Of a DNA stretch of 13,716 bases, positions 1,525 through 13,340 are shown piece after piece. The notes under the pieces were generated by a model that saw nothing but the letters and a program-made list of their open reading frames with translations, was not told where the DNA came from and searched no databases. The stretch comes from Myxococcales bacterium (GTDB lineage Bacteria; Myxococcota; Polyangia; Fen-1088). Location of the stretch: positions 308-14,023 of the forward strand of contig PMCR01000156.1 in NCBI GenBank assembly GCA_003155465.1, read 5' to 3'. Both the position numbers and the translations under genes were made by a program. Each line of letters starts with the position of its first letter. Positions within the stretch are counted from its first letter, which is position 1.

Positions 1525-4500
1525 GTGCGGTTCGTGGCTGACCTGCATATCCACTCGTATCTGTCACGGGCGACCAGCAAGGAGCTGACCCTCGAACAGC
1601 TCCATCGCTGGGCCCAGCGCAAAGGGATTGCCGTGGTCGCCACCGGCGACTTCACCCATCCGCGCTGGTTTGCCGAATTGCGCGACAAGCTGGTTCCCGC
1701 GGGGGACGGCCTTCTTGCCCTGCGCGAGGAATTGGCCCGGGCGGTGGACGCCGAGGTGCCTGCCGCTTGTCGTGCTCCCGTGCGTTTCATGTTGTCGGTC
1801 GAGGTCAGCAGCATCTACAGCCGCGGCGATCGGGTGCGCAAGGTACACAATCTCATCTACGCACCCGACTTCGAGTCCGCGGCACGCGTGTCGTCACGCC
1901 TGGCCCGCATCGGCAACATCGAATCCGACGGCCGCCCGATCCTCGGCGTCGATTCACGAGACCTTCTGGAGATCACGCTCGCATCGTCGCCAGATGCCTT
2001 TCTGATTCCCGCGCATATCTGGACGCCCTGGTTCTCGGCCTTGGGCTCGCAGTCTGGCTTCGATTCCCTTGCCGAGTGTTTTGCTGATCTGGCGGATCAC
2101 ATCTTCGCGGTCGAGACCGGTCTCTCGTCGGATCCGGCGATGAACTGGCGCCTGTCCGCGCTGGATCGCTACGCGCTGGTCTCCAGTTCCGATGCCCATT
2201 CGCCGGAGAAGCTGGGCCGCGAAGCCAACCTGTTCGACTGCGATCTGTCCTACTTTGCCATGCGCGACGCGCTTCGCGAGCGCGGGGCCGGGTTTCTCGG
2301 CACACTCGAGTTCTTTCCCGAGGAGGGCAAGTACCACGCCGAAGGCCACCGCAAATGCGAGGTCGCGCTGACGCCCGAGGAGGCGGAGGCCTGCGGAAGG
2401 ATCTGCCCCCGCTGCGGAAAGTCTCTTACCGGCGGGGTGCTGGGTCGAGTGGCGGCGCTGGCTGACCGACCCGCGGGTTTTCGGCCCGAAGGAGCCAAGC
2501 CTTTTTCCAGCCTGGTGCCTCTGGCCGAGGTATTGGGCGAGGTGCTGGGCGTGGGCGCGGGCAGCAAGCGAGTGTGGAGCGCCTGGCAGCAACTGGTGTC
2601 GCGGGTCGGTCCCGAGCTGACCGTGCTGCGGGATGCTCCCTTGGAAGACCTGGGCCGCGAGGGACCGCCCCTACTGGCCGAAGCCCTGCGCCGCATGCGC
2701 GCGGGCGAGGTGAGACGGCAGGCCGGCTATGACGGCGAGTACGGCGTCGTGCGCATGTTCGACGAAGACGAGCGCCTGCGTTTGCTCGCGCAGACGACCT
2801 TCGCCTTTGGCAGCGCGGCGGTGACTCCTGCCGAGAAACCCACGCCCCAGCCAGCGATGCGTCCGGCAAGCGAAGAAGCGCCCCAGGACCACGCCGCCGG
2901 TCCCAATCTCGAACAGGAGGCAGCTATCGCCCATGGCGAGGGGCCGCTGCTGGTGGTGGCGGGGCCAGGCACCGGAAAGACGCGCACCCTGGTGGAGCGG
3001 ATTGCGCGGATGGTGCGTGATTGCGACGCTGCGCCGGCGGAGATCACTGCCATCACCTTCACGCGCAAGGCAGCGACCGAGCTGCGTGAGCGCCTCGCGA
3101 GTCTGTTGGGCACGCGCGCCGATGGCGTTTCGGTGCAGACCTTCCACGCGCTCGGCCTTGATCTGCTCCGGGCGCACGCTGCTGCCGCCGGGCTGCCGCC
3201 GCACTTCGCGATTCTCGACGAGGCAGGCCGGCGGGAGTTGCTCGCTCGGTTGCACGCCGAGACGGACGCGTGCGAGCTAACACTGGCGCGGTTGTCCAGT
3301 GCCATCTCGGCGGCCAAGGCCGCGCTGGTCGCGCCGGCAGACGCGGCACCCGAGCTGACCGCCATCTACACTGCGTACGAGAAGGCGCTGGCCGACGCGG
3401 GCGCGGTGGATTTCGACGATCTGGTGGCGCGGGCAGTCCGTTTGCTGGAAACAGACGAAGCTGCGCTCGCCTTCGCGCTCCGTCGCTGTCGCCACTTGCT
3501 GGTGGACGAGTATCAGGACATCAATGCCGCCCAATACCGACTGGTGCGCCTGCTGGCGCCCGCGGGGCGTTCGACGGACCTGTGCGCGGTCGGCGATCCC
3601 GATCAGGCCATCTACGGCTTTCGCGGCTCCGACCCTTCCTATTTCGGCCGCTTCACTGTCGACTATCCCGGGGCTCGCACCCTCACCCTGGCGCGCAACT
3701 ACCGTTCCGTCGCGTCGGTCGTGCGCCTGGCCACCGCCGTCATCGAACGCACCCCGGAACGCGTCCCGCGACCGCTGCAGCCGGTTTCGGCGCGCGCAAG
3801 CAAGATCCTGCGCCAGGTTCTGGCCGATGAGCGCGCCGAGGCGGACTTCATCGCCGCCGAGATCGAGGCGCAGGTTGCGGGCACGAGTTTCCTTTCCATG
3901 GACGCGGGCCACGCCGTGCAGGGGCACGGCCTGGCCTTTCACCAGATCGCAGTGTTGGTGCGCCTGTCAGCCCAGGCCGATGCCATCGAGGAGGCGCTCG
4001 ACCGAGGCGGGATCCCTTGTCATCGGCGGGGCGACGACGCCTTTGCCGCGCGCCCGCAAGTGGGGGACATCCTGGCCAAGCTGCGCCGCCACGTCGATGG
4101 ACAGGCAGGTGAAATTCGCCACCCACCCGTTGCCGATCTACTCACCAGCTTGGTCCCCGACGCTGCGACCGACCCGCGCCGTCTGCGCGCGCTGGATCTC
4201 CTGCGGGCTTTCGCGGTTCCCTATGCCACCGATGCGGCCGCCTTCCTGTCCGAGATGGCGCTTGCGCGCGAAACCGACCTTGAGCATCTCCCGCAGAAGG
4301 TGGCGCTTCTGACCTTGCATGCCAGCAAGGGCCTGGAGTTCCCGCTGGTCTTCATTGCCGGGTGCGAGAACGGCATCTTGCCGCTGCGTCTTCCGTGGCT
4401 GCCGCCCGCCGACGTGGAAGAAGAACGTCGTCTGCTCTACGTCGGCATGACCCGGGCGCAGCAGCACCTGATCCTGACCGCTGCTTCCCGCCGCACCCTG

Positions 4501-4623
4501 GCCGGCCGCACCGTCGAGAATCTGCCCTGCCCATTTCTCGACGACTTGCCACCTGAACTGCTCGCCACCTCTCGCTCGGCCCCGCGCCGCCGCAAGCCGC
4601 GTCAGCTGTCGCTGTTGGATTGA
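1525..4623 (+). CDS. Endonuclease Q (PHP/Zn-ribbon) fused to UvrD/Rep-type superfamily 1 helicase
   Basis: The protein has 1032 residues. Residues 1-430 match endonuclease Q: a PHP-type nuclease start DLHIHSYLSRATSK (6-19), GDFTHP (41-46), E93, H108, H164 and SSDAH (221-225) as likely metal ligands, then HRKC and CPRC (Cys278, 294, 297) of the zinc ribbon. EndoQ nicks 5' to uracil, hypoxanthine, xanthine and abasic sites. A Pro/Ala-rich linker (431-459) leads to a complete SF1A helicase: Q-motif Gln464, Walker A AGPGTGKT (479-486), TFTRKAATELRER (Ia), DEYQD (661-665), GDPDQAIYGFRG (III), ARNYRS (IV), TLHASKGLEF (V) and YVGMTRAQQHL (VI). The 2B region looks short. The C-terminus reads RQLSLLD, like a beta-clamp peptide. 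The start is GTG; an in-frame stop lies 16 bases upstream, and no Shine-Dalgarno is visible. The joint role in alternative excision repair is inferred. Confidence 0.93.
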   Translation: MRFVADLHIHSYLSRATSKELTLEQLHRWAQRKGIAVVATGDFTHPRWFAELRDKLVPAGDGLLALREELARAVDAEVPAACRAPVRFMLSVEVSSIYSRGDRVRKVHNLIYAPDFESAARVSSRLARIGNIESDGRPILGVDSRDLLEITLASSPDAFLIPAHIWTPWFSALGSQSGFDSLAECFADLADHIFAVETGLSSDPAMNWRLSALDRYALVSSSDAHSPEKLGREANLFDCDLSYFAMRDALRERGAGFLGTLEFFPEEGKYHAEGHRKCEVALTPEEAEACGRICPRCGKSLTGGVLGRVAALADRPAGFRPEGAKPFSSLVPLAEVLGEVLGVGAGSKRVWSAWQQLVSRVGPELTVLRDAPLEDLGREGPPLLAEALRRMRAGEVRRQAGYDGEYGVVRMFDEDERLRLLAQTTFAFGSAAVTPAEKPTPQPAMRPASEEAPQDHAAGPNLEQEAAIAHGEGPLLVVAGPGTGKTRTLVERIARMVRDCDAAPAEITAITFTRKAATELRERLASLLGTRADGVSVQTFHALGLDLLRAHAAAAGLPPHFAILDEAGRRELLARLHAETDACELTLARLSSAISAAKAALVAPADAAPELTAIYTAYEKALADAGAVDFDDLVARAVRLLETDEAALAFALRRCRHLLVDEYQDINAAQYRLVRLLAPAGRSTDLCAVGDPDQAIYGFRGSDPSYFGRFTVDYPGARTLTLARNYRSVASVVRLATAVIERTPERVPRPLQPVSARASKILRQVLADERAEADFIAAEIEAQVAGTSFLSMDAGHAVQGHGLAFHQIAVLVRLSAQADAIEEALDRGGIPCHRRGDDAFAARPQVGDILAKLRRHVDGQAGEIRHPPVADLLTSLVPDAATDPRRLRALDLLRAFAVPYATDAAAFLSEMALARETDLEHLPQKVALLTLHASKGLEFPLVFIAGCENGILPLRLPWLPPADVEEERRLLYVGMTRAQQHLILTAASRRTLAGRTVENLPCPFLDDLPPELLATSRSAPRRRKPRQLSLLD

Positions 4624-4625
4624 AT

Positions 4626-5486
4626 CTACAGGACTCGTACGTGGCCCTGGTCGTCGATGTCGACCAGTCGCTGTCGGAGCAGTCTTCCCACTGCGCGCTT
4701 GAAGGCTTTCTTGCTCAGGCCGAACAGCGCGCGAATCTGCTCGGGATCCGAGCGATCCCCGAGCTTGGGTGCGCCCGACCGGACGAGCAGTTGCAGGATC
4801 TTCTGGCCGTCGCTTTCCAGCTCTTCGTGCGCATGCGCGCGCAGCGAGAGCTCGATCTTTCCGTCCGGGTGGACGTGGGTCACGCGAAAGTTTGCCGCTT
4901 GGCCGCGCGACAGGGCGTGCGGCTCGTGCTTGGGTACCAGCCCGACGAAGCGCCGCTGCACAATCACGAACAGGCCAATCTCGGAATCGTTGCGCCATGC
5001 CTCGCCCTCCACCCATTCGCCCGGTGCAAAGGCATTGCTTCCGCCCAGCCATTCACTGACCCGCATGGTTCCAGCAAGACGGCCGGTGTTGTCGAGGTAG
5101 AGGCCGATCGGACTGCGTTCGCCGACACCCAACTTTCTGGTCTGCTCCGCGAACGGCACCAACAATTCTTTGGGCAATCCCCAATCCACAAATGCCCCGA
5201 ACTCCGTGCACGCGGTCACCGTGAGAAAGGCGACTTCGCCCAGCGCCAGCTTGGGGGTTTTGGTCGTGGCCAGCGGGCGGCCCTCGGAGTCGAGCGTGAC
5301 AAAGACAGCCACCTCGTCGCCCTCGCGCGCATCTCTCGGGATCTCCGGCCCGAGGAGCAACAGCGTGTCTGCCTCAATGCCTGCCCTCTTCTCCGCCAGA
5401 AAAGCCCCCGGGCTGCCAAAGCGCCGAATCTCCAAGGTGGCAAAGCGGCCAAGGAGATCGTGGAAGGGCGGCGCGAGAACCGACAT
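4626..5486 (-). CDS. CvfB family S1-domain RNA-binding protein with winged-helix C-terminus
   Basis: The product has 286 residues from the ATG at 5486. It has the CvfB/YitL layout: three S1-like OB folds (about 12-75 with LATTKTPKLALGE at the end of the first, 83-145 with GAFVDWGLPKELLVPF at 97-112, and 155-215 with DGKIELSL after it), then a winged-helix segment (about 230-286) with DRSDPEQI and GLSKKAFKRAVG. Family members bind RNA; in Staphylococcus CvfB affects virulence gene expression. No enzyme function is known. In-frame starts further out exist at 5504, 5513 and GTG 5594, but none has a good ribosome site and the family begins only about ten residues before the first S1 strand, so 5486 is preferred. 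Its stop is 2 bases from the convergent stop of the repair fusion. Confidence 0.88.
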   Translation of the reverse strand: MSVLAPPFHDLLGRFATLEIRRFGSPGAFLAEKRAGIEADTLLLLGPEIPRDAREGDEVAVFVTLDSEGRPLATTKTPKLALGEVAFLTVTACTEFGAFVDWGLPKELLVPFAEQTRKLGVGERSPIGLYLDNTGRLAGTMRVSEWLGGSNAFAPGEWVEGEAWRNDSEIGLFVIVQRRFVGLVPKHEPHALSRGQAANFRVTHVHPDGKIELSLRAHAHEELESDGQKILQLLVRSGAPKLGDRSDPEQIRALFGLSKKAFKRAVGRLLRQRLVDIDDQGHVRVL

Positions 5487-5607
5487 CGCAGGCAAGTGTG
5501 CCATGAATAGCATGGCTCGACTGGTCGAGCGTCCGGATCCCCGGCAGCGAACTTCGGCAACGGCACGCCGAGTTTGGCCAGGACGAGGCGGCACTCGCCG
5601 TCCGCGC

Positions 5608-5954: not shown

Positions 5955-7619
5955 CTACTCGTGCAGGGTCCCGCGCTCCATGCGGCCTTCGCGCCAGAGG
6001 GCTTCCTCCATGGCGGCGAGCAAGGGGCGCGTGGTCTGGGCGTCGGGCGCGCTCAACGCAATGGCCTGCCGATCGGCGGCGAGCCCCGCGCGTTCGTCCG
6101 GGGTCAGGCGATCAATCTTGTTGTAGACGAGCAACCGGGGCGTTCCGGCCAGATCCAGTTCATTCAGGATGCGTTCGACGGCCACGATGTGCGCCTCCCG
6201 GTCGGCATCTGCGCTATCAACCACGTGCAGAAGCAGGTCCGCGTCCTGCAACTCCTCCAGGGTGGCGCGAAAGGCCTGGGCCAGGTCCTTGGGCAGGTCG
6301 CGGATGAAGCCCACTGTGTCGGCCAGGATCAGCTCGCGCTCGCGCGGAAAACGCAGCCGCCGGGTGGTGGGGTCGAGCGTGGCAAAGAGCTTGTCCTCGA
6401 CCAGCACCTCACTGCCAGTCAGGGTGTTGAGCAAGGTGGACTTGCCCGCGTTGGTGTAGCCCACGATGCCCACGATGGGGACTTCCCGCCGGGTGCGCTG
6501 GGCGCGCCGGCCGGCGCGCTGGCGGCGGGTTTGGTCGATTTCGTGTTCCAGCCGGTGCACGCGCTCGCGCGCGCGGCGGCGGCCGATTTCCAACTTGGTC
6601 TCGCCTGGACCGCGGCCGCCAATGCCACCGACCAGGCGGCTCATCATGGTGTTCTCTTCCTGCAAGCGTGGCAGCCGGTAGCGCAGTTGCGCCAACTCGA
6701 CCTGCAGCTTGGCGTCGCGGCTGCGTGCCCGCTGGGCGAAGATGTCTAGGATAAGGATTGTGCGATCGATGACCTTGAGGTCGGTAAAATCGGAGATGGC
6801 GTGGGCCTGTCCGGGCGTCAGATCGGGGTCGAAGATGAGTAGTCCGGCGTCGTATTGCATGGCCCGCACCAACACATCCTCCAGTTTCCCGCGACCGATG
6901 AGGTACTTGGGGTCAGGATCGGGTCGGCGCTGAATGGCCACGTCGGTGACCGCAATGCCCGCGGTTCGACACAGTTCGCGCAGTTCGTGAACCCGACTGT
7001 CCGTGCCGCCTGAGGCGCGTGTCTGGCGCGATTCCAGCACCACCAGCACGGCGCGCTCAGCGCCCGAGGTGGCACGCGTGGCGGGCAAGGCGCGGTCGAA
7101 TTCCTCTTCCAACGCGCCGACCAGTTCTTCAACATCAACCGACGCGCGGTGGAATGGCACGGGCACGAGCACGGTCCACGGCGACGATTTCTCCCGCGGG
7201 GGCATCAGGTGGGCCAGATGCAGGTCACCCGTGCGTCCATCCTGGGTCACGCCCACCGCCGCCACCAGGTCCAGACGCAGAAGCGCCAGGTCAACCAGAT
7301 CGTCGCGCGAGATGGGCTCGTTGCGCAGATGGGTGTGCACGAGGCGCAGACCGCGGAAACGTCCATGACCGGCGCGCACGCGCCCCACCGCGGGCAGCAT
7401 GATGCGTGAGGCATCGCCGACCACGACGTGCTCGATGTCACCCCGGCGCGAGATCAGTGCGCCCACCTGCCGCCCGATCTCGCGCGACAATGCGCACATG
7501 AAAGTGGCCAGTTCGGCTGACACAAGCTCGTGCGGCGGTACACGCCTTCGGTAAATGCGCTCCAGGCCCTTCAGCTCACTGGGCTTCAGCCCGCTGAGGT
7601 TGCCAGTCACTTCACGCAT
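5955..7619 (-). CDS. hflX: GTPase HflX, long form
   Basis: A ribosome-associated GTPase that splits stalled 70S/100S ribosomes, for example after heat stress (family knowledge). From the ATG at 7619 it has 554 residues. Residues 1 to about 185 form an extension absent from E. coli HflX but usual in deltaproteobacterial and clostridial long forms ([20 protein letters not shown] near the start). The HflX domain follows with [11 protein letters not shown] and the glycine-rich [14 protein letters not shown] loop (331-344). The GTPase domain has G1 GYTNAGKST (387-395), G2 FATLDPTT, G3 DTVGF (434-438), G4 NKID (500-503) and a short tail after G5. An in-frame TTG at 7634 is possible but adds only five residues. 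Both candidate starts lack a strong ribosome site. Confidence 0.96.
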
Positions 7620-7941
7620 GAGAACACCGCCCAAGAATTTGGCATGTCACCACCGAGGGGGGTGGGCACACATCGGAGACCGGCCTCCCCGCCCAGCCCA
7701 GGTCGACCAGCATGAGCGGTAGCGGTAGCGTGAGCGACCGGCGTATAGCGGCCTGCGTGGGCGGCTCGCGTGAGCGGCCACGCGGCACGCTCTCCGCCTT
7801 CCGCGCACTCCCACACGCCCACGCTCACGCCCTCGCTCACGCCCTCGCGCCCCGCCATCCGCAAGCCGGTCCATCGGGCGGCCCGAAACTTCCCAACAGG
7901 CTCCGTCGAACTCCCAACGTCGCTGCAGTCACAAGATTCAG
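7620..7941. other. Intergenic region between the FrzS/AglZ-like gene and hflX
   Basis: There is no gene here that I can support. It is unusually rich in short repeats (listed separately at 7711-7846). A small dyad CCAA-gaat-TTGG (7631-7642) lies 11 bases before the hflX ATG and could be an operator or a structure masking the start. No T-rich tract follows the upstream gene's stop, so a classical Rho-independent terminator is not evident. A promoter for hflX is expected in this stretch but none stands out. Confidence 0.5.
7711..7846. repeat. Intergenic GC-rich direct and inverted repeats
   Basis: The 9-mer GCGTGAGCG occurs at 7728-7736 and 7768-7776, and its reverse complement CGCTCACGC at 7822-7830 and 7834-7842. 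The second pair sits within a perfect 12-base tandem duplication GCTCACGCCCTC (7823-7834 and 7835-7846). GCGTGGGCG (7755-7763) is also matched by CGCCCACGC (7816-7824). A hexamer pattern GCGGTA is repeated at 7716-7727. The right half can therefore fold back on the left half in several registers, in either DNA strand or in read-through RNA from the upstream gene. Confidence 0.6.
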
Positions 7942-10356
7942 CTACCCCTCGTCCGGCGAGCGCGTCACGGACGGCGGAGATGCGGCCGCCGGCGTCGCCG
8001 CGCCCCGATCGTCAAGCAGGGTGAGCGCGACAGCCAGGGCCCGCTTCGCCTTGTCCACGATCTTGTCGTCGTTGCGCAGTTTCTGGTAGGCGCGCAGGAT
8101 CTGGTCCTCGAAGTCGGCCAGCTTGGTCTCCAACTCGCTGGTGCGGTCACGTGCCTGGGCCAGCTTCACCTCGCGGTCGCGTAGGTCAGCGCGTGCGGTG
8201 TCCAGCTCCCCCTCTAACCGCAATGCGCGCCGACTGAGTTCGCCCAGTTCCTGGGTGCGGGCAGCCAGCTCGCCCTCGGCGCGCGATGCCCGGGCCAATG
8301 TCTGGTCCGATTCTGCACGGTGGCGTTCGGCCATCTCGGTCTTCTCGTCCAGGTGCCGACGATCCATCTCAGCGACCGCGCTGTGGTGCTCCTCGTCGCG
8401 CGCCTGCAGCTCGGCACGGCGCCGTTCGTCGGCTGTGGTCAGCTCGGCCGACTGGCGCGCGGCCGCTTCTTCCAGTTCGCGCTGGCGCCGAGCCTCCGCG
8501 GAAGCCAACTCGTCTTCCAGCCGGCGGCGCAGGGCCTGGATCTCGTTCTTGTGGTCGCGCTCCTTGGCCTCCAAAGCCGTTTCATGGGCCTGACGCTCGG
8601 CCGCAAGTTGGGCTGACGACTCTTCCTTGAGCGAAGCGACGGCCTTCTCTTGCTCGCGCCGCAGTCGCGTCAGCTCGACATCGTGGCGGTCCTCCAAGGC
8701 CGCCAGCTCGTCCGCTGCGCGCCGCTGTTGCGCCTCCAACTCGGCCGCACGATCCATGTCCGTGCGCGCCTTCTCCGCCCGAGCCTGCTCCTCGCGCGCG
8801 GCCTCGGCTGCTTGGCGCTCGTTCACCATCTGCGCGACCTCGGCCCGGTGAACCTGCTCCATGTCCGAGACATGGTTCTCCAGATCCTGCCGGATCTTCT
8901 CGACCTCAGCGCGCGACCGATCCTCGGCGGTCGCGAGACGCTTGCGCAGAGACTCGATCTCGTCTTGCGCCTTGGCGAGCTCGAGGTGGTTGTCGTCGAG
9001 TCGAACCTTGAGCGCGCGCTCACGCTCGACGGCTCGATCCTTGTCCTGGGCCAGAGCGGTCACGCGCTCGCTGGCGTAGACCAGGCTCTTCTCCATGGCG
9101 AGCATCTTTTCCTCAAGATCGCGGCGCGCGCGCTCGTGCTCGCGAATGCGGTCCTTGTGGTCGAGCATCTGGCGCTCTCTGGCGTCGAGCGCGTCCCGCA
9201 GGTCAAGCAGGTCCTTCTCCTTGCGATTGATGGTCTCGCGCAGACCGAGCAGGTCTCGTTCCTTGTGGAAAGGCTGCGCCTGCAGGCGCCCGTTCAACTC
9301 CTCCAGCTCACTTTGCAGGCGGCGCTTGTCGTTTTCCAGCTCGTGGATGCGCTCCTGCAGTTCGGCCAGCAAGCCTTCGGGGGCATCACCCGCGGGGAGG
9401 GCCTCCACCGATGTGGCGTTCACCGCGTCTGGCTCGGGCGGGGGACCTGCCTCGTCGACTGGATCGCGCAGCAAGTCCAGCGGAAGGTCGAGCTCTGTCT
9501 CGGGCGTGACAGCTTGTGGCGCGTCCTGCGCCGGTTCGACGGGTGGCACCATTCCCGGCATCATGCGCATCGTCGCAGCAGGTCCAGGCTGGCCCGCCCC
9601 GCTGGGCGGCGGCAACAGATCAGCCGCGAGACTCGCCGGCGCCACAGACGTGGCCGCTTGTTCGTCCCAGGGCTCAGGTCTCTCGTCGAGGGAGCCAGGC
9701 ACTGGCGCGCTTACCGTCGGCTGCTCGTGGATCTCGAGGGCGTCGAAAGCCGCCTGGGCCTCTTTGTCGAAGATCGCGTCCAAGCTGGGTCCCAGCGCGG
9801 ACGAGTCGCTCGACTCTGCCTCGATTTCCACGACCGCGCCACCGCCGAGCGCCCCGGGCGAGACCGGCGGCGGGGTCGGGATGCGCGAGTCGTCGACGAT
9901 GTCATCTGCCTCGATGGCGATTTCCGACGACAGTAGGTCGGAACTCAGGAATATCTCATCCGTCGGGGAGCCAGCCGCCGCGCTCAACCCCACCAGCTTG
10001 TCCACCTTGCGGCAAAGCTCCTCGGTATCGAATGGCTTGAAGATGTACTCGTCAGCACGCAGCTTGAAAGTCTTGTGTTGCTCGAACTTGGCAGGCACCT
10101 CATCCGACGAGGTCAAAATGAGCGGGATGTTCTTCAGCTCGGCATTGCGCTTGAGCTTGTTGCAGATGGCATAACCCACCTTCTTGGGCTCGACCGAGAC
10201 GATGATGAGCGCAGGAAGGTTCTTCCGGCCCCATTCCAGCGCCTCGTCTCCGTTGATGAGGTTCATGATTTCGAACCCGTAGGGCGCCAGCGTGGCCGAC
10301 AGCTGTTGCAGGGCGGCCTGGTCCGGTTCCACGCACAGAAGCGTTCTCGTCGCCAT
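7942..10356 (-). CDS. FrzS/AglZ-like pseudo-receiver with long coiled coil
   Basis: The product has 804 residues. Residues 1-124 are a response-regulator fold (CVEPD at 8-12, GYAICNKLKRN at 61-71, IPLILTSSDE, ADEYIFKPFDTEEL). The phosphoacceptor Asp position after the third strand reads SVEP (Ser54, Glu56), so phosphorylation is unlikely; FrzS of Myxococcus is similarly atypical. Residues 125 to about 327 are an acidic, Pro/Ala-rich linker. About 328 to 775 is continuous heptad-like sequence very rich in E, R, A, L and Q. The end (about 750-778), YQKLRNDDKIVDKAKRALA, resembles the conserved tail of FrzS/AglZ. Those proteins localise dynamically to cell poles and drive type IV pilus (FrzS) or gliding (AglZ) motility. 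Which of the two this corresponds to, or a third paralogue, cannot be told; no motility genes lie next to it. Confidence 0.85.
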   Translation of the reverse strand: MATRTLLCVEPDQAALQQLSATLAPYGFEIMNLINGDEALEWGRKNLPALIIVSVEPKKVGYAICNKLKRNAELKNIPLILTSSDEVPAKFEQHKTFKLRADEYIFKPFDTEELCRKVDKLVGLSAAAGSPTDEIFLSSDLLSSEIAIEADDIVDDSRIPTPPPVSPGALGGGAVVEIEAESSDSSALGPSLDAIFDKEAQAAFDALEIHEQPTVSAPVPGSLDERPEPWDEQAATSVAPASLAADLLPPPSGAGQPGPAATMRMMPGMVPPVEPAQDAPQAVTPETELDLPLDLLRDPVDEAGPPPEPDAVNATSVEALPAGDAPEGLLAELQERIHELENDKRRLQSELEELNGRLQAQPFHKERDLLGLRETINRKEKDLLDLRDALDARERQMLDHKDRIREHERARRDLEEKMLAMEKSLVYASERVTALAQDKDRAVERERALKVRLDDNHLELAKAQDEIESLRKRLATAEDRSRAEVEKIRQDLENHVSDMEQVHRAEVAQMVNERQAAEAAREEQARAEKARTDMDRAAELEAQQRRAADELAALEDRHDVELTRLRREQEKAVASLKEESSAQLAAERQAHETALEAKERDHKNEIQALRRRLEDELASAEARRQRELEEAAARQSAELTTADERRRAELQARDEEHHSAVAEMDRRHLDEKTEMAERHRAESDQTLARASRAEGELAARTQELGELSRRALRLEGELDTARADLRDREVKLAQARDRTSELETKLADFEDQILRAYQKLRNDDKIVDKAKRALAVALTLLDDRGAATPAAASPPSVTRSPDEG

Positions 10357-10497: not shown

Positions 10498-11277
10498 CTA
10501 CCGCCGTTCCAGGTACACCGTCTCGACCCAGTGGGCCAGCGCATCTTCGTCGAGGTCCGCAGTGAACACGTAGGTCAGCCCGTCCGGTCCATGGTATGCG
10601 GCGGTCGATACGCCGCGGCTGCTGCCCACGTACACATCGCGCCCACCCAGGGTCCGACGGCGCGGGCCAAAGGCGAGGTCATCATCGGCTGGAAACACCA
10701 TCAGCCCCAGACGGTGGCCGGCCGGGACCTGATAGACGACATAGGCCCCAAAGCGCTCGCGCACATTCACCAGCCGGCCGCCCTGGCAGCGCGTCCGGTC
10801 AGCGCCGGCGGCAGCCGGCATCGTGAAGTCTAGCTTGCCGCGAAACCAGTCGGTGACCGCGGCGCAACTCTGTGACAGCACGTCGAGCGGCAGGTCGTGA
10901 TGGAAGGTGGACAGGGCCTGCTCAAGCACCGGGGACGAGGGGCTACGCCGCGGGCTGGCCACCAGCAACACTACCGCTGCCGACGCCGCGATGGCCAAGG
11001 TGAAGATACGTGGGTAGGCCTGCCAGGGCCACTGACGTCGCGCCGGGGGCTCGGCCTCAAGCGCCGTGTGAAGGCGCTGACGCAAGCTCTCAGGAACTTC
11101 CGGCCGCGGCAGATGTCCGCGCAGGGCCGCCTTGAAACGCGCCTGCAAGCGCGTGGCGTGCGCGCAGGCATCACAACTCACCAGGTGGGCCTCGTAGGCA
11201 GTCCGATCCGATCCGGACAACTCGCCATCGACAAAGGCGTACATGATGGCGTCCGCCTGCGAGCATTTCATCCCCAT
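10498..11277 (-). CDS. Zinc-binding membrane anti-sigma factor
   Basis: From the ATG at 11277 the product has 259 residues. The cytoplasmic N-terminus holds the zinc anti-sigma (zf-HC2) pattern with Cys5 and H-x3-C-x2-C (His31, Cys35, Cys38: HLVSCDAC), which binds and holds the sigma factor encoded just upstream. One membrane helix follows (about 90-107, FTLAIAASAAVVLLVA). The remaining roughly 150 residues should be periplasmic; they have two cysteines (near 136 and 163) and no domain I can name, though similar C-terminal regions with WFRGKLDF and YVVYQV occur in related anti-sigma factors. It overlaps the sigma stop codon (TGATG), and AGGAGG at 11285-11290 serves it; an in-frame GTG at 11280 is an alternative start. 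It is presumably released by proteolysis or an envelope signal. Confidence 0.88.
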   Translation of the reverse strand: MGMKCSQADAIMYAFVDGELSGSDRTAYEAHLVSCDACAHATRLQARFKAALRGHLPRPEVPESLRQRLHTALEAEPPARRQWPWQAYPRIFTLAIAASAAVVLLVASPRRSPSSPVLEQALSTFHHDLPLDVLSQSCAAVTDWFRGKLDFTMPAAAGADRTRCQGGRLVNVRERFGAYVVYQVPAGHRLGLMVFPADDDLAFGPRRRTLGGRDVYVGSSRGVSTAAYHGPDGLTYVFTADLDEDALAHWVETVYLERR

Positions 11278-11933
11278 CACCCGCCCTCCTGTTTCATCTT
11301 GCGAAAACCATCCAAATCAACCACCTGACCTTCGGCCGTCTCATCCGCCTCCGCTTCGCTGCCGCCTTGCTGACCGCGGATGATACCCGACTCGACCGCG
11401 TAGTCGTGCAGCCGCTTCTGCAGCAGCCTTCGCCCGCGATAGAGCCGGCTCATGACCGTGCCCGCCGGGCACTCCATGACATCGGCGATTTCCTTGTACG
11501 ACAGATCTTCCAGGTCGGCCAGGATGACCGGCAAGCGGAACTCGGCAGGCAAGGCGGCGAGCGCCTTCTCCACGTCGCGTGAGAGCATGCGGCCGAAGAG
11601 CGCACTTTCTGCGTCACGCGGGGTCTGACCTTGAAACTGACCTAGATGCGCGTCGCAGCATTGCGCCTCGGCCATGATTTCCTGTTCCCGCTCCCATTCC
11701 CGGTAGCGATTTCGGAAGGAGTTGGTGAGAATACGCAAGAGCCATGCCTTGCAGTTGGTGCCAGCCTCGAAGCTGTCCCAGAAGCGGTAGGCGCGAAGCA
11801 CGGTCTCCTGTACCAAGTCCTCGGCGTCGCCCTCGACCCTAGTCATGCGCAGGGCCACGCCGTAAAGCAGGCGAAGATGCGGCATCACCTCGCGTTCGAA
11901 ATCTGGCTTGGATGGGGCAGCGCGGAACAGCAT
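11277..11933 (-). CDS. ECF-type RNA polymerase sigma factor
   Basis: The product has 218 residues from the ATG at 11933. Region 2 is clear: LRLLYGVALRMTR, DAEDLVQETVLRAYRFW and GTNCKAWLLRILTNSFRNRY. Region 4 follows with ALPAEFRLPVILADLEDLSY, KEIADVMECPAGTVMSRLYR and RGRRLLQKRL, a helix-turn-helix for -35 recognition. There is no region 1 or 3, as in group IV factors. The wording of region 2 is like SigR/RpoE-type members that pair with zinc anti-sigma factors, and such a gene overlaps its 3' end. A charged tail of about 35 residues (GSEAEADETAEG) follows region 4. The open frame continues to an ATG at 11993, but that would place the start ahead of a candidate -10 element, and the extra 20 residues are not family-like. 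The stimulus is unknown. Confidence 0.92.
   Translation of the reverse strand: MLFRAAPSKPDFEREVMPHLRLLYGVALRMTRVEGDAEDLVQETVLRAYRFWDSFEAGTNCKAWLLRILTNSFRNRYREWEREQEIMAEAQCCDAHLGQFQGQTPRDAESALFGRMLSRDVEKALAALPAEFRLPVILADLEDLSYKEIADVMECPAGTVMSRLYRGRRLLQKRLHDYAVESGIIRGQQGGSEAEADETAEGQVVDLDGFRKMKQEGG
11285..11290 (-). promoter_or_regulatory. Ribosome binding site of the anti-sigma gene, inside the sigma gene
   Basis: A perfect AGGAGG inside the last codons of the sigma gene, 7 bases before ATG 11277 (4 before GTG 11280). With the TGATG overlap it points to translational coupling, keeping sigma and anti-sigma in fixed proportion. Confidence 0.75.
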
Positions 11934-11954
11934 GGTCAGCTTGCAGTTTCTAAA

Positions 11955-11982
11955 CAGATCATAGCCCAGGATTATTTCCTGG
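11955..11982 (-). promoter_or_regulatory. Candidate promoter with overlapping dyad for the sigma/anti-sigma operon
   Basis: On the minus strand CCAGGA-AATAA-TCCTGG (11982-11966) is a perfect 6-base inverted repeat with a 5-base spacer, directly followed by TATGAT (11963-11958), a good -10. Alternatively GGAAAT (11979-11974) and TCTG (11958-11955), 15 bases apart, resemble an ECF-type -35/-10 pair, which would allow autoregulation. Either reading puts the transcript start just downstream, about 20 bases before ATG 11933. No housekeeping -35 is visible at the right distance. Confidence 0.4.
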
Positions 11983-12035
11983 CATGCGCACATCCGCGCG
12001 TTCTTGCACCGTTCCCAAGGCCAGGCCGTGGAGAC

Positions 12036-13340
12036 CTAGGGCAGCTCGGCAGGGCTCAATACCGTGACCAGGTAGCGCTGGCTTCCCCCAGGAACCGCAG
12101 CGTCAGCCCGAGTGGACGAGCCCGGCATGTCCAGGTAGGTGACGTAGACCGCGTCATTGCCTACCCAGGATGAGACTAGACCGGTGTTGCCAGCCATGCT
12201 GGGCAGGTAGAGCGTCCTTCCCCTGGGGTCGGCGTAGGCGTCGAATCGCACGACCTGCGGCCCCCGCGATCCTGCCAGCCCGATGGTGAACTCGTCGCCA
12301 GCAGGGGCGATCCAGTGCAGCTTGGGCATTTGCGAGTAGCCACCCCAGGAGGCCGACGCCAGTACCGGGCGGGTCAGCACGAGGGGGGCCACCTCTGGGC
12401 CCGCATCCGGGGGAGCCGGTGTCAAGATGGCGAAGTCCGTGCCGCCCTTGTCGGAGCTGTTCTGCCACGCCAAGAGATAGCCGTCGGAATTGGGTGTGGA
12501 GACGATGCGACAATCGGTCACATCGAGGTTCACGGCAATAGTGGTTTCCCCGCCGTGGGAGCCGTCATCATTCATGTCGAAGCGACGCCAAGCTGGCAGT
12601 AGCGGATGTCGATTCGCCTCGTTGGGAGCCTCAATCAAGGTGACGGCCAGGTTCGGAGCGTTCTGCGTGATATCGAGGCAGCTCCAGAGCGCAATGCTAT
12701 TCGGGCTGGAAGCGCCGGGGATTTGTCCCAAGCCACCCACCAGCGCCCCGTCGGTCTTGAGCATCTGGTAGTGGATCGGCGCAAGCTGGCCCTCCACACC
12801 CCACAGGACCAGTGCCCTTGTGCCGTTGGGCGCGCTGCCCGCCACCAGCCGGACTTTTCCTGAGTTTGCAGCCGCCACTTGCACGCCCAGGATCTGCGTG
12901 GTCACCGGCACCCTGGATCCCAAATCATAGACCCGGGCATGCACCGCGTATTCATTCGTGTTCCCGGCCACCCCCGTCACCACCACGAGCTGATCGCCAG
13001 GCGCGGTCTTGCTGGTGACCGCGAAAAGCGGGCCGAGCGCTTGCTCCCCAGTGATCGTCACAGGGGTCTCGGGTAGCTCGAAGTCGGATTCGCCGCTGAG
13101 AACGCCGCTGCTACTGAGTTGACCCCATCGCACAGTGGTCCCGTCAAGCCCCGCCAACACGAATCCATCGCCCGCACGCAAGAGCACCGCGTTCCGGGAA
13201 AGCGCCAGGGGCGAGTCGCTGGGAAGTGGAGCCTGCTGGCCGACCTCGGCACAGAGCGGCGGATCCGATCCGCAGCCAGCCCAAAACAACGAGGTGAGCC
13301 CGGCGACTGACCAAACGTAGCCACCGACCTTGGGAGTCAT
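12036..13340 (-). CDS. Putative lipoprotein of unknown function
   Basis: The product has 434 residues. The first 23 form a short signal with Lys4, a hydrophobic stretch and AGC ending at Cys23, followed by Gly-Ser-Asp, so it is probably exported and lipidated; the -3 Trp makes the lipobox atypical. The rest is beta-rich, Gly/Thr/Val/Ala-heavy sequence with loosely repeated blocks such as GFVLAGLDGTTVRWGQL, GYLLAWQNSSDKGGTDF and DAVYVTYLDMPGS, spaced like blades of a beta-propeller (inference from pattern only). DMNDDG at 255-260 resembles a calcium-binding loop. I recognise no named family. It starts 55 bases after secA ends and lacks a visible ribosome site; it may be co-transcribed with secA. 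About 100 bases separate it from the sigma gene start. Confidence 0.75.
   Translation of the reverse strand: MTPKVGGYVWSVAGLTSLFWAGCGSDPPLCAEVGQQAPLPSDSPLALSRNAVLLRAGDGFVLAGLDGTTVRWGQLSSSGVLSGESDFELPETPVTITGEQALGPLFAVTSKTAPGDQLVVVTGVAGNTNEYAVHARVYDLGSRVPVTTQILGVQVAAANSGKVRLVAGSAPNGTRALVLWGVEGQLAPIHYQMLKTDGALVGGLGQIPGASSPNSIALWSCLDITQNAPNLAVTLIEAPNEANRHPLLPAWRRFDMNDDGSHGGETTIAVNLDVTDCRIVSTPNSDGYLLAWQNSSDKGGTDFAILTPAPPDAGPEVAPLVLTRPVLASASWGGYSQMPKLHWIAPAGDEFTIGLAGSRGPQVVRFDAYADPRGRTLYLPSMAGNTGLVSSWVGNDAVYVTYLDMPGSSTRADAAVPGGSQRYLVTVLSPAELP

Follow-up and report, generated by a model that had tools for sequence, protein, structure and literature searches.

An endonuclease Q–helicase fusion with a predicted clamp-binding tail in a Myxococcales contig and across bacterial phyla

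Does a single reading frame that resembles endonuclease Q (EndoQ) at one end and a UvrD-type helicase at the other encode a real bacterial enzyme, and if so, what might that enzyme do? The question is raised by a 13,716-nt stretch of Myxococcales contig PMCR01000156.1 (assembly GCA_003155465.1), referred to here as the window. Its positions 1525..4623 (+ strand) hold a complete gene, with a GTG start and 1032 amino acids plus stop, recognized from its open reading frame (ORF) and from profile and structure matches. An initial annotation of the bare sequence had placed an EndoQ and a superfamily 1A (SF1A) helicase of the UvrD type on one chain, and this stands: both sites are conserved, and the fusion recurs across phyla. 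The zinc ribbon and the size of the helicase need correction, and the C-terminal tail, an internal motif and the spread of the family had escaped notice. The bacterial fusion is real and widely spread, and joins known enzyme kinds on one chain. No published description of an EndoQ-helicase fusion was found in the literature searched, and subscription papers or preprints may hold one; nor did that literature yield a report of a clamp-type tail on such a fusion or, as had been supposed, any functional study of one.

The whole-protein homologue set consists of the best 120 of at least 7996 scored candidates. Of these, 111 passed a full-length filter that required 940 aa or more and an N-terminal EndoQ motif, and 31 of the 36 top-listed ones, the window's own included, are 78–100% identical over 100% of the query. 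Among GTDB species genomes, at least 589 of at least 590 pattern-matching stretches encode a relative; 80 stretches were retained, 78 of them fused (two ended by a contig edge) and two split into adjacent genes. Recurrence across phyla and full-length near-identical homologues rule out a chance fusion or an assembly join, the latter having been named beforehand as a possible refutation. The EndoQ part of one homologue (P0111), used as a query, gave at least 7997 long candidates at E 0.001 or better, possibly including other PHP proteins. Hosts of relatives include Myxococcales, Caldilineaceae/Anaerolineae, several Actinomycetota genera, Binatia, Planctomycetota, Fibrobacteres, Opitutaceae, Gemmatimonadetes, Gastranaerophilales, Desulfobacterales and other deltaproteobacteria, Elusimicrobia, Alphaproteobacteria, Caldithrix, KSB1, Bacteroidota, Rickettsiales, Nitrospirae, Omnitrophota and Neglectibacter, many of these genomes being metagenome-assembled. 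As the initial annotation expected, homologues go under generic names (“TIGR00375 family”, “DNA helicase-2/PcrA”, “UvrD-helicase domain-containing”).

The EndoQ-like domain occupies residues 1–412 (1525..2760, + strand, as are all parts of the gene). It matches TIGR00375 and has the EndoQ fold, being similar over its full length to a solved EndoQ structure (5zb8). A flexible linker (residues 426–457, 2800..2895), the sole segment of at least three residues with predicted local distance difference test (pLDDT) values under 50, joins it to an SF1A UvrD/PcrA-like helicase (residues 458–1018, 2896..4578), whose Walker A sequence GPGTGKT lies at residues 480–486 (2962..2982). The AlphaFold2 model used here replaces an earlier one built from 21 close sequences (pLDDT 70.6). 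In the profile comparison that had been suggested, TIGR00375 and pcrA did match, but both under their NCBIfam cut-offs: 154.6 against 326.6 bits for TIGR00375 and 406.7 against 911.2 for pcrA, with uvrD (327.4 against 1144.45) and rep (355.4 against 951.45) also missed by the helicase half. The TIGR00375 cut-off is reached in none of 20 fusion or split genomes. The helicase half is above the Pfam gathering scores for PF00580 (236.2 bits) and PF13361 (127.1 bits). Scores below the NCBIfam cut-offs point to a distinct EndoQ-like subfamily and a distinct UvrD-like helicase rather than textbook equivalogs.

Site conservation was taken from an alignment of 81 diverse fusions, mapped on PfuEndoQ. 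The site residues of the EndoQ-like domain are D6, H8, H10, D42, E93, H108, H164, D223 and H225 in the PHP core and G199 and S201 in the pocket; all are identical in 81/81 fusions apart from H8, which is kept in 80. The counterparts of PfuEndoQ E76, H84, H139, G169 and S171 are likewise invariant. Changing E76, H84 or H139 abolishes PfuEndoQ activity, and H139, G169 and S171 hinder T and A (PMC8307549). The zinc ribbon ligands are H275, C278, C294 and C297, so that what had been described as a Cys ribbon is His-Cys-Cys-Cys: PfuEndoQ C249 is replaced by His in 79 of the 81 fusions (H275 in the window), which thus lack a four-cysteine ribbon and still have four potential ligands, the three cysteines being identical in all 81. 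The same alignment shows no variation in helicase residues G482, G484, K485, T486, D661, E662, Q694, R727, H932, K935 and R977. Joint retention of both catalytic sites in all 81 sequences speaks against a dead partner domain.

The protein ends in ...RKPRQLSLLD, where QLSLL (residues 1027–1031, 4603..4617) is a predicted beta-clamp-binding-type motif. A terminal Q-L-x-L-[L/F]-type motif is the consensus of beta-clamp-binding proteins, QL[SD]LF being the beta-clamp consensus, and by this standard the fusions carry a clamp-type terminal motif conserved above chance. The pattern Q-[LMI]-x-[LM]-[LFIWG] falls within the last 10 residues of 115 of the best 120 homologues, with just two interior matches in their 121,763 residues. 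Under a strict definition (Q[LMI]x[LMF][LFIWY], sought over the final 14 residues), the tail is found in 69 of 76 complete diverse fusions, compared with a mean of 0.38 and a maximum of 2 when the tails of those 76 are shuffled; the seven without it mostly have near variants, such as QQRLF or QMSIF. Further Desulfobacterota fusions, some of which may overlap with earlier loci, have the strict tail in 19 of 20 cases. It is absent from all 29 complete PcrA/UvrD proteins without EndoQ taken one each from 29 fusion or split genomes, one of which matches the looser pattern. Archaeal EndoQ binds PCNA through a C-terminal PCNA-interacting protein (PIP) box and is stimulated by it, with a dissociation constant of 55 nM for TkoEndoQ, and bacterial EndoQ homologues have previously been noted to carry beta-clamp-type motifs in their C-terminal region (PMC4858679).

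A second candidate motif, QTTFAF (residues 423–428, 2791..2808), lies after the EndoQ domain at the position of the archaeal PIP box. At this domain end, 25 of the 81 diverse fusions carry Qxx[LMIF][FLWY], against a mean of 4.0 and a maximum of 9 after shuffling; a motif of this type, often GQQSLF, is found in 16 of the 20 Desulfobacterota fusions, counted without shuffles. In the window's group its place is taken by a six-residue form, Qxx[FLM]x[FL], present in 107 of 116 close homologues, the remaining four of the best 120 having given no anchor; shuffling gave a mean of 5.55 and a maximum of 11. The homodimeric beta clamp offers two clefts (PMC3022782), and two motifs on one chain could, hypothetically, fill both.

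The helicase was initially called complete. This is true of its SF1A motif residues, but not of its size: helicase residues 6–400 align to PcrA 12–400 and 452–563 to PcrA 533–650, leaving 51 residues between the aligned stretches where PcrA has 132. The 2B subdomain (approximately residues 840–915, 4042..4269, as judged by spacing against PcrA) is therefore reduced, and in structural superposition residues 457–1019 of the fusion cover UvrD 10–658. The fusion lacks a full 2B, as in other SF1A helicases, and four homologues (P0088, P0107, P0108 and P0111) are without the region. A spacing estimate over the 76 fusions was noisy (21 without a value, one without motif V) and was not used. The Rep monomer is activated by deletion of 2B, which is regarded as autoinhibitory (PMC13238157); by analogy, the motor of the fusion may be active alone. 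The reduced and missing versions are natural tests of the autoinhibition model.

Adjacent EndoQ and helicase genes are found at four loci. In an Omnitrophota locus (L056) a 430-aa EndoQ ending QLTLF is followed by a 507-aa helicase ending QMTLF, and in a Nitrospirae locus (L066) a 423-aa EndoQ ends QGTLF and a 650-aa helicase QMGLF. At L194 the helicase begins 1 nt past an EndoQ with tail QMRLL, and the full helicase, seen as L261, ends QMELFS. At L166 the adjoining helicase ends QASLF and its EndoQ has no such tail. Kin of the L056 helicase (L056:6384-7907; kin P0135–P0254) are UvrD-like, lack most of 2B and carry a C-terminal clamp-type motif. Of the 120 nearest among at least 8000 scored, within a size window of 279–887 aa, 114 have the strict tail and 119 the loose one; 96 are 480–539 aa long, and by a rough spacing measure the 2B region is short in most. 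They are known from proteins alone, and P0210, at least, has the look of a fusion fragment. Together with the L056 pair, the 114 tailed relatives indicate that a helicase encoded by a gene of its own can still have the clamp-type tail. EndoQ can also stand by itself with a tail: of 29 complete separate EndoQs among the best-scoring loci of a Desulfobacterota sample, 26 have the motif at their end (19 strict, 7 loose).

A quick IQ-TREE phylogeny of 106 EndoQ domains, with Shimodaira–Hasegawa-like approximate likelihood ratio test (SH-aLRT) support only, excluded near-duplicates and loci that were repeated or cut, together with 20 of the 30 classical Bacillota rows and, among separate EndoQs, five at 80 bits or less (L168, L170–L173). 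Fusion-type EndoQs, whether fused, split or in some cases separate, are divided at SH-aLRT 100 from PfuEndoQ and the classical EndoQs of Bacillota, and an 84-row core, also at 100, holds 72 fused, three probably fused, seven separate and two split forms. The L056 and L066 splits are nested in fused groups, which suggests secondary splitting, and the Bacillota separate and split forms branch near the base. With 30 of 103 inner branches open, the finer branching order is unsure. A profile of the EndoQ half separates the rows listed in the same way, with at least 458 bits for fusion-type domains (246 for one contig-cut fragment) and 68–135 for the others. Six fusion-type EndoQs of the Pseudomonadota sample (L124, L130, L174–L177) have neither helicase nor clamp tail, and several are on long branches within the fused clade; helicase loss and drift are possible. 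In one Bacillota-sample genome, two fusion-type EndoQs, one fused and one separate, lie within about 7 kb of each other (L163:3570-7199 and 14253-15512).

Frequencies were estimated by a phylum census with TIGR00375 (E up to 0.001; lengths refer to the open frame in which the match falls), every sample containing a centre genome picked for having the gene. Matches were found in 8 of 146 Myxococcota genomes, six of the eight frames reaching 900 aa and the remaining two 599 and 832 aa, and in 7 of 246 Actinomycetota genomes, where two are weak PHP matches and four of the other five reach 900 aa. Pseudomonadota had 18 of 200, ten of fused and eight of separate length. With separate and fused forms taken together, EndoQ matches occur in 125 of 249 Bacillota genomes and in 103 of 148 genomes of the Desulfobacterota sample. 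At E up to 1e-20, 127 Bacillota matches divide into 27 of fused length, 94 of separate length and six others, and 101 Desulfobacterota-sample genomes into 41 (870 aa or more), 54 and six. The gene is thus patchy within the phylum of the window and more frequent elsewhere, and on the Bacillota and Desulfobacterota counts bacterial EndoQ-like genes are not rare.

Gene neighborhoods are variable: among 439 flanking ORFs at 62 loci, no family occurs in more than six loci. In five deltaproteobacterial loci (L068, L073, L076, L079, L252) dnaN is divergent from the fusion, with about 0.5–3.2 kb between open frames; the one of these genes checked matches TIGR00663 at E 1.7e-76. A dnaN-like gene also lies 0.9 kb from the fusion in L028. 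Beyond dnaN, L068, L073, L076 and L079 have genes that look by eye like gyrB. The fusion does not appear to replace PcrA: of 32 fusion or split genomes, 29 yielded a separate EndoQ-free PcrA/UvrD, and for the remaining three the top-scoring protein was the fused or split helicase.

What might such an enzyme do? The reading that we favor, with moderate confidence, is that of a single-chain repair enzyme for deaminated and abasic DNA, tethered to the sliding clamp; nicking, unwinding and clamp binding are activities predicted from the sequence. The clamp-type tail or tails would hold the enzyme on the beta clamp, and the EndoQ half would flip out a uracil, hypoxanthine or abasic site and nick 5' of the lesion. 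EndoQ is known to cut 5' of dU, dI, dX and abasic sites, giving a 3'-OH and a 5'-phosphate (PMC4357722, PMC6202378), so the lesion remains on the downstream strand at the nick; in the fusion, too, the nick would leave a 3'-OH and a lesion-bearing 5' end. The 3'-to-5' helicase would then load on the unnicked strand, enter the duplex downstream of the nick and displace the lesion-bearing strand; a motor of this polarity on that strand moves into the lesion-bearing strand, and by deduction the geometry favors the long-patch strand displacement that the initial annotation had raised as one option. A polymerase on the same clamp might extend the 3'-OH, with a flap nuclease and ligase to finish, and the 2B-reduced monomer may work without dimerizing or an activator. 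In the portions of the EndoQ literature consulted, what happens after the nick is put forward as a proposal and not demonstrated, and the damaged base stays at the 5' side of the nick. If the model is true, the fusion supplies the lesion-removal step that EndoQ alone lacks. With a strand-peeling motor and a clamp-type hook on one chain, the post-nick question becomes directly testable in a single protein, and many generically named helicase entries gain a concrete hypothesis.

A bolder combination is put forward tentatively, since we would sooner expect some part of it to fail than all of it to hold. It would make the fusion a widespread, unrecognized excision-repair route, in which a self-activated, 2B-reduced enzyme, bound by two motifs to both clefts of the clamp, nicks DNA at deaminated or abasic sites and strips away the damaged strand as clamp-bound synthesis keeps pace. 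The enzyme would have arisen from joined clamp-tailed neighbor genes, an arrangement still present, or present anew, in Omnitrophota and Nitrospirae.

Several observations weigh against the favored reading or parts of it. The tail is absent from the last 18 residues of all 30 classical Bacillota EndoQs and of all 22 further separate EndoQ rows (two genomes appear twice); EndoQ is thus not always in need of a clamp tail, and the simple rule that it always ends in one was rejected. In 56 of 81 fusions, the window's included, the internal motif departs from the QxxLF form, and the six-residue version sits at the end of a modelled helix (residues 414–424), which makes structural conservation a fair alternative. 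The reduced-2B helicase superposes on DNA-bound UvrD with 536 residues aligned, compared with 456–458 for open forms (e.g., 1pjr), so some of the regulatory function of 2B may survive its reduction. EndoQ need not have a helicase linked to it, as 28 of the 29 separate Desulfobacterota-sample EndoQs have none within about 1.5 kb on each side (two loci end sooner). The initial annotation would have been undone by halves that are always separate and unlinked; they are not, as the fusion recurs and some halves are adjacent, but these 28 cases do go that way. Among the helicases fetched from 20 genomes with a separate EndoQ, only the EndoQ-adjacent one has a strict tail; one 558-aa helicase has a loose tail, QKGLF, and one end was unreadable. 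Few fusions lie near dnaN (6 of the 130 loci scanned, of which many are too short for neighbors), and those that do are mostly of one lineage. A uracil-DNA glycosylase (UDG) match in 42 of 44 fusion or split genomes gives no sign that the fusion stands in for UDG, and a role as its replacement is not supported. Nor was a LexA-type box found with one simple pattern in 24 Actinomycetota and Bacillota upstream regions, and SOS control was set aside.

The same clamp-type tails would also suit replication-coupled, strand-directed repair, in which the tail orients the enzyme to remove uracil derived from dUMP, or a clamp-activated nickase is followed by UvrD-like action, with resident deamination not the target. 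In mismatch repair, strand displacement is attributed to UvrD (PMC7690668), the five deltaproteobacterial fusions have dnaN in their neighborhood, and the UDG already present in nearly all of the genomes leaves room for a special role. We nevertheless think this unlikely, as every aligned fusion has the pocket residues that are said to keep out T and A, with no sign of mismatch recognition, and the dnaN association is so rare. It is more improbable still that the halves act independently and the fusion merely co-regulates a nickase and a general helicase. The many frames of separate length (54 of the 101 Desulfobacterota-sample genomes), the scarcity of helicases near separate EndoQs and the low confidence of the modelled linker would fit such an arrangement; the preponderance of fused forms in the 84-row core argues against it, as does the absence of the helicase tail from all 29 other PcrA/UvrD proteins, which indicates that this is not a general PcrA joined by accident.

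Anti-phage defence is the explanation to which we give least credence: a nuclease plus UvrD logic like that of Gabija, directed against phage DNA with uracil or hypoxanthine-like bases. The patchy distribution in Myxococcota and Actinomycetota could be read this way, a possible antiviral role of Bacillus EndoQ has been mentioned (PMC8307549), and PADLOC GajB models match the helicase at 268.8 bits. However, the GajB matches only reflect UvrD homology, and no GajA was found among the seven other scanned ORFs of the window (the left-end ORF is outside the scan), leaving a Gabija-type system a weak candidate. The recurrent families among the flanking ORFs, at most six loci each, are by eye not defence genes, and EndoQ matches in about half or more of the Bacillota and Desulfobacterota genomes, separate EndoQs included, are unlike a sporadic defence gene.

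In the window itself, the fusion is followed by a convergent S1/CvfB-like gene (4626-5594) and then an HflX GTPase gene (5955-7634, - strand), which has an extra N-terminal region of about 190 aa ahead of the family match at residues 194–546. Farther along, all on the - strand, are an 804-aa protein (7942-10356) with a response-regulator receiver domain and then a long Pfam-unmatched region, coiled-coil-like by eye; an extracytoplasmic function (ECF) sigma factor gene followed by a zf-HC2 anti-sigma-like gene (10498-11993); and a 434-aa ORF (12036-13340) with no Pfam or NCBIfam match at E up to 0.01.

How does the fusion compare with known systems? Its EndoQ forms a deep clade separate from the described enzymes (PfuEndoQ PF1551, TkoEndoQ, Bacillus pumilus EndoQ; TIGR00375, COG1379), from which it also differs in scoring below the TIGR00375 cut-off, in its His-Cys3 ribbon and in being joined to a helicase. 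That helicase stands apart from UvrD, PcrA and Rep by its scores below all three cut-offs, its reduced or missing 2B, and a C-terminal clamp-type motif that the 29 other PcrA/UvrD proteins are without. Like Gabija GajA-GajB, the fusion pairs a nuclease with a UvrD-like helicase; GajA is a different nuclease from EndoQ, and unlike Gabija the fusion has a clamp-type tail, with neither GajA nor a defence context seen here. The order of events proposed for the fusion has a parallel in mismatch repair, where a nick is followed by strand displacement that is attributed to a UvrD helicase (PMC7690668). Unlike mismatch repair, the fusion has recognition, nick and motor on one chain, aimed, to judge from residue conservation, at deaminated and abasic sites.

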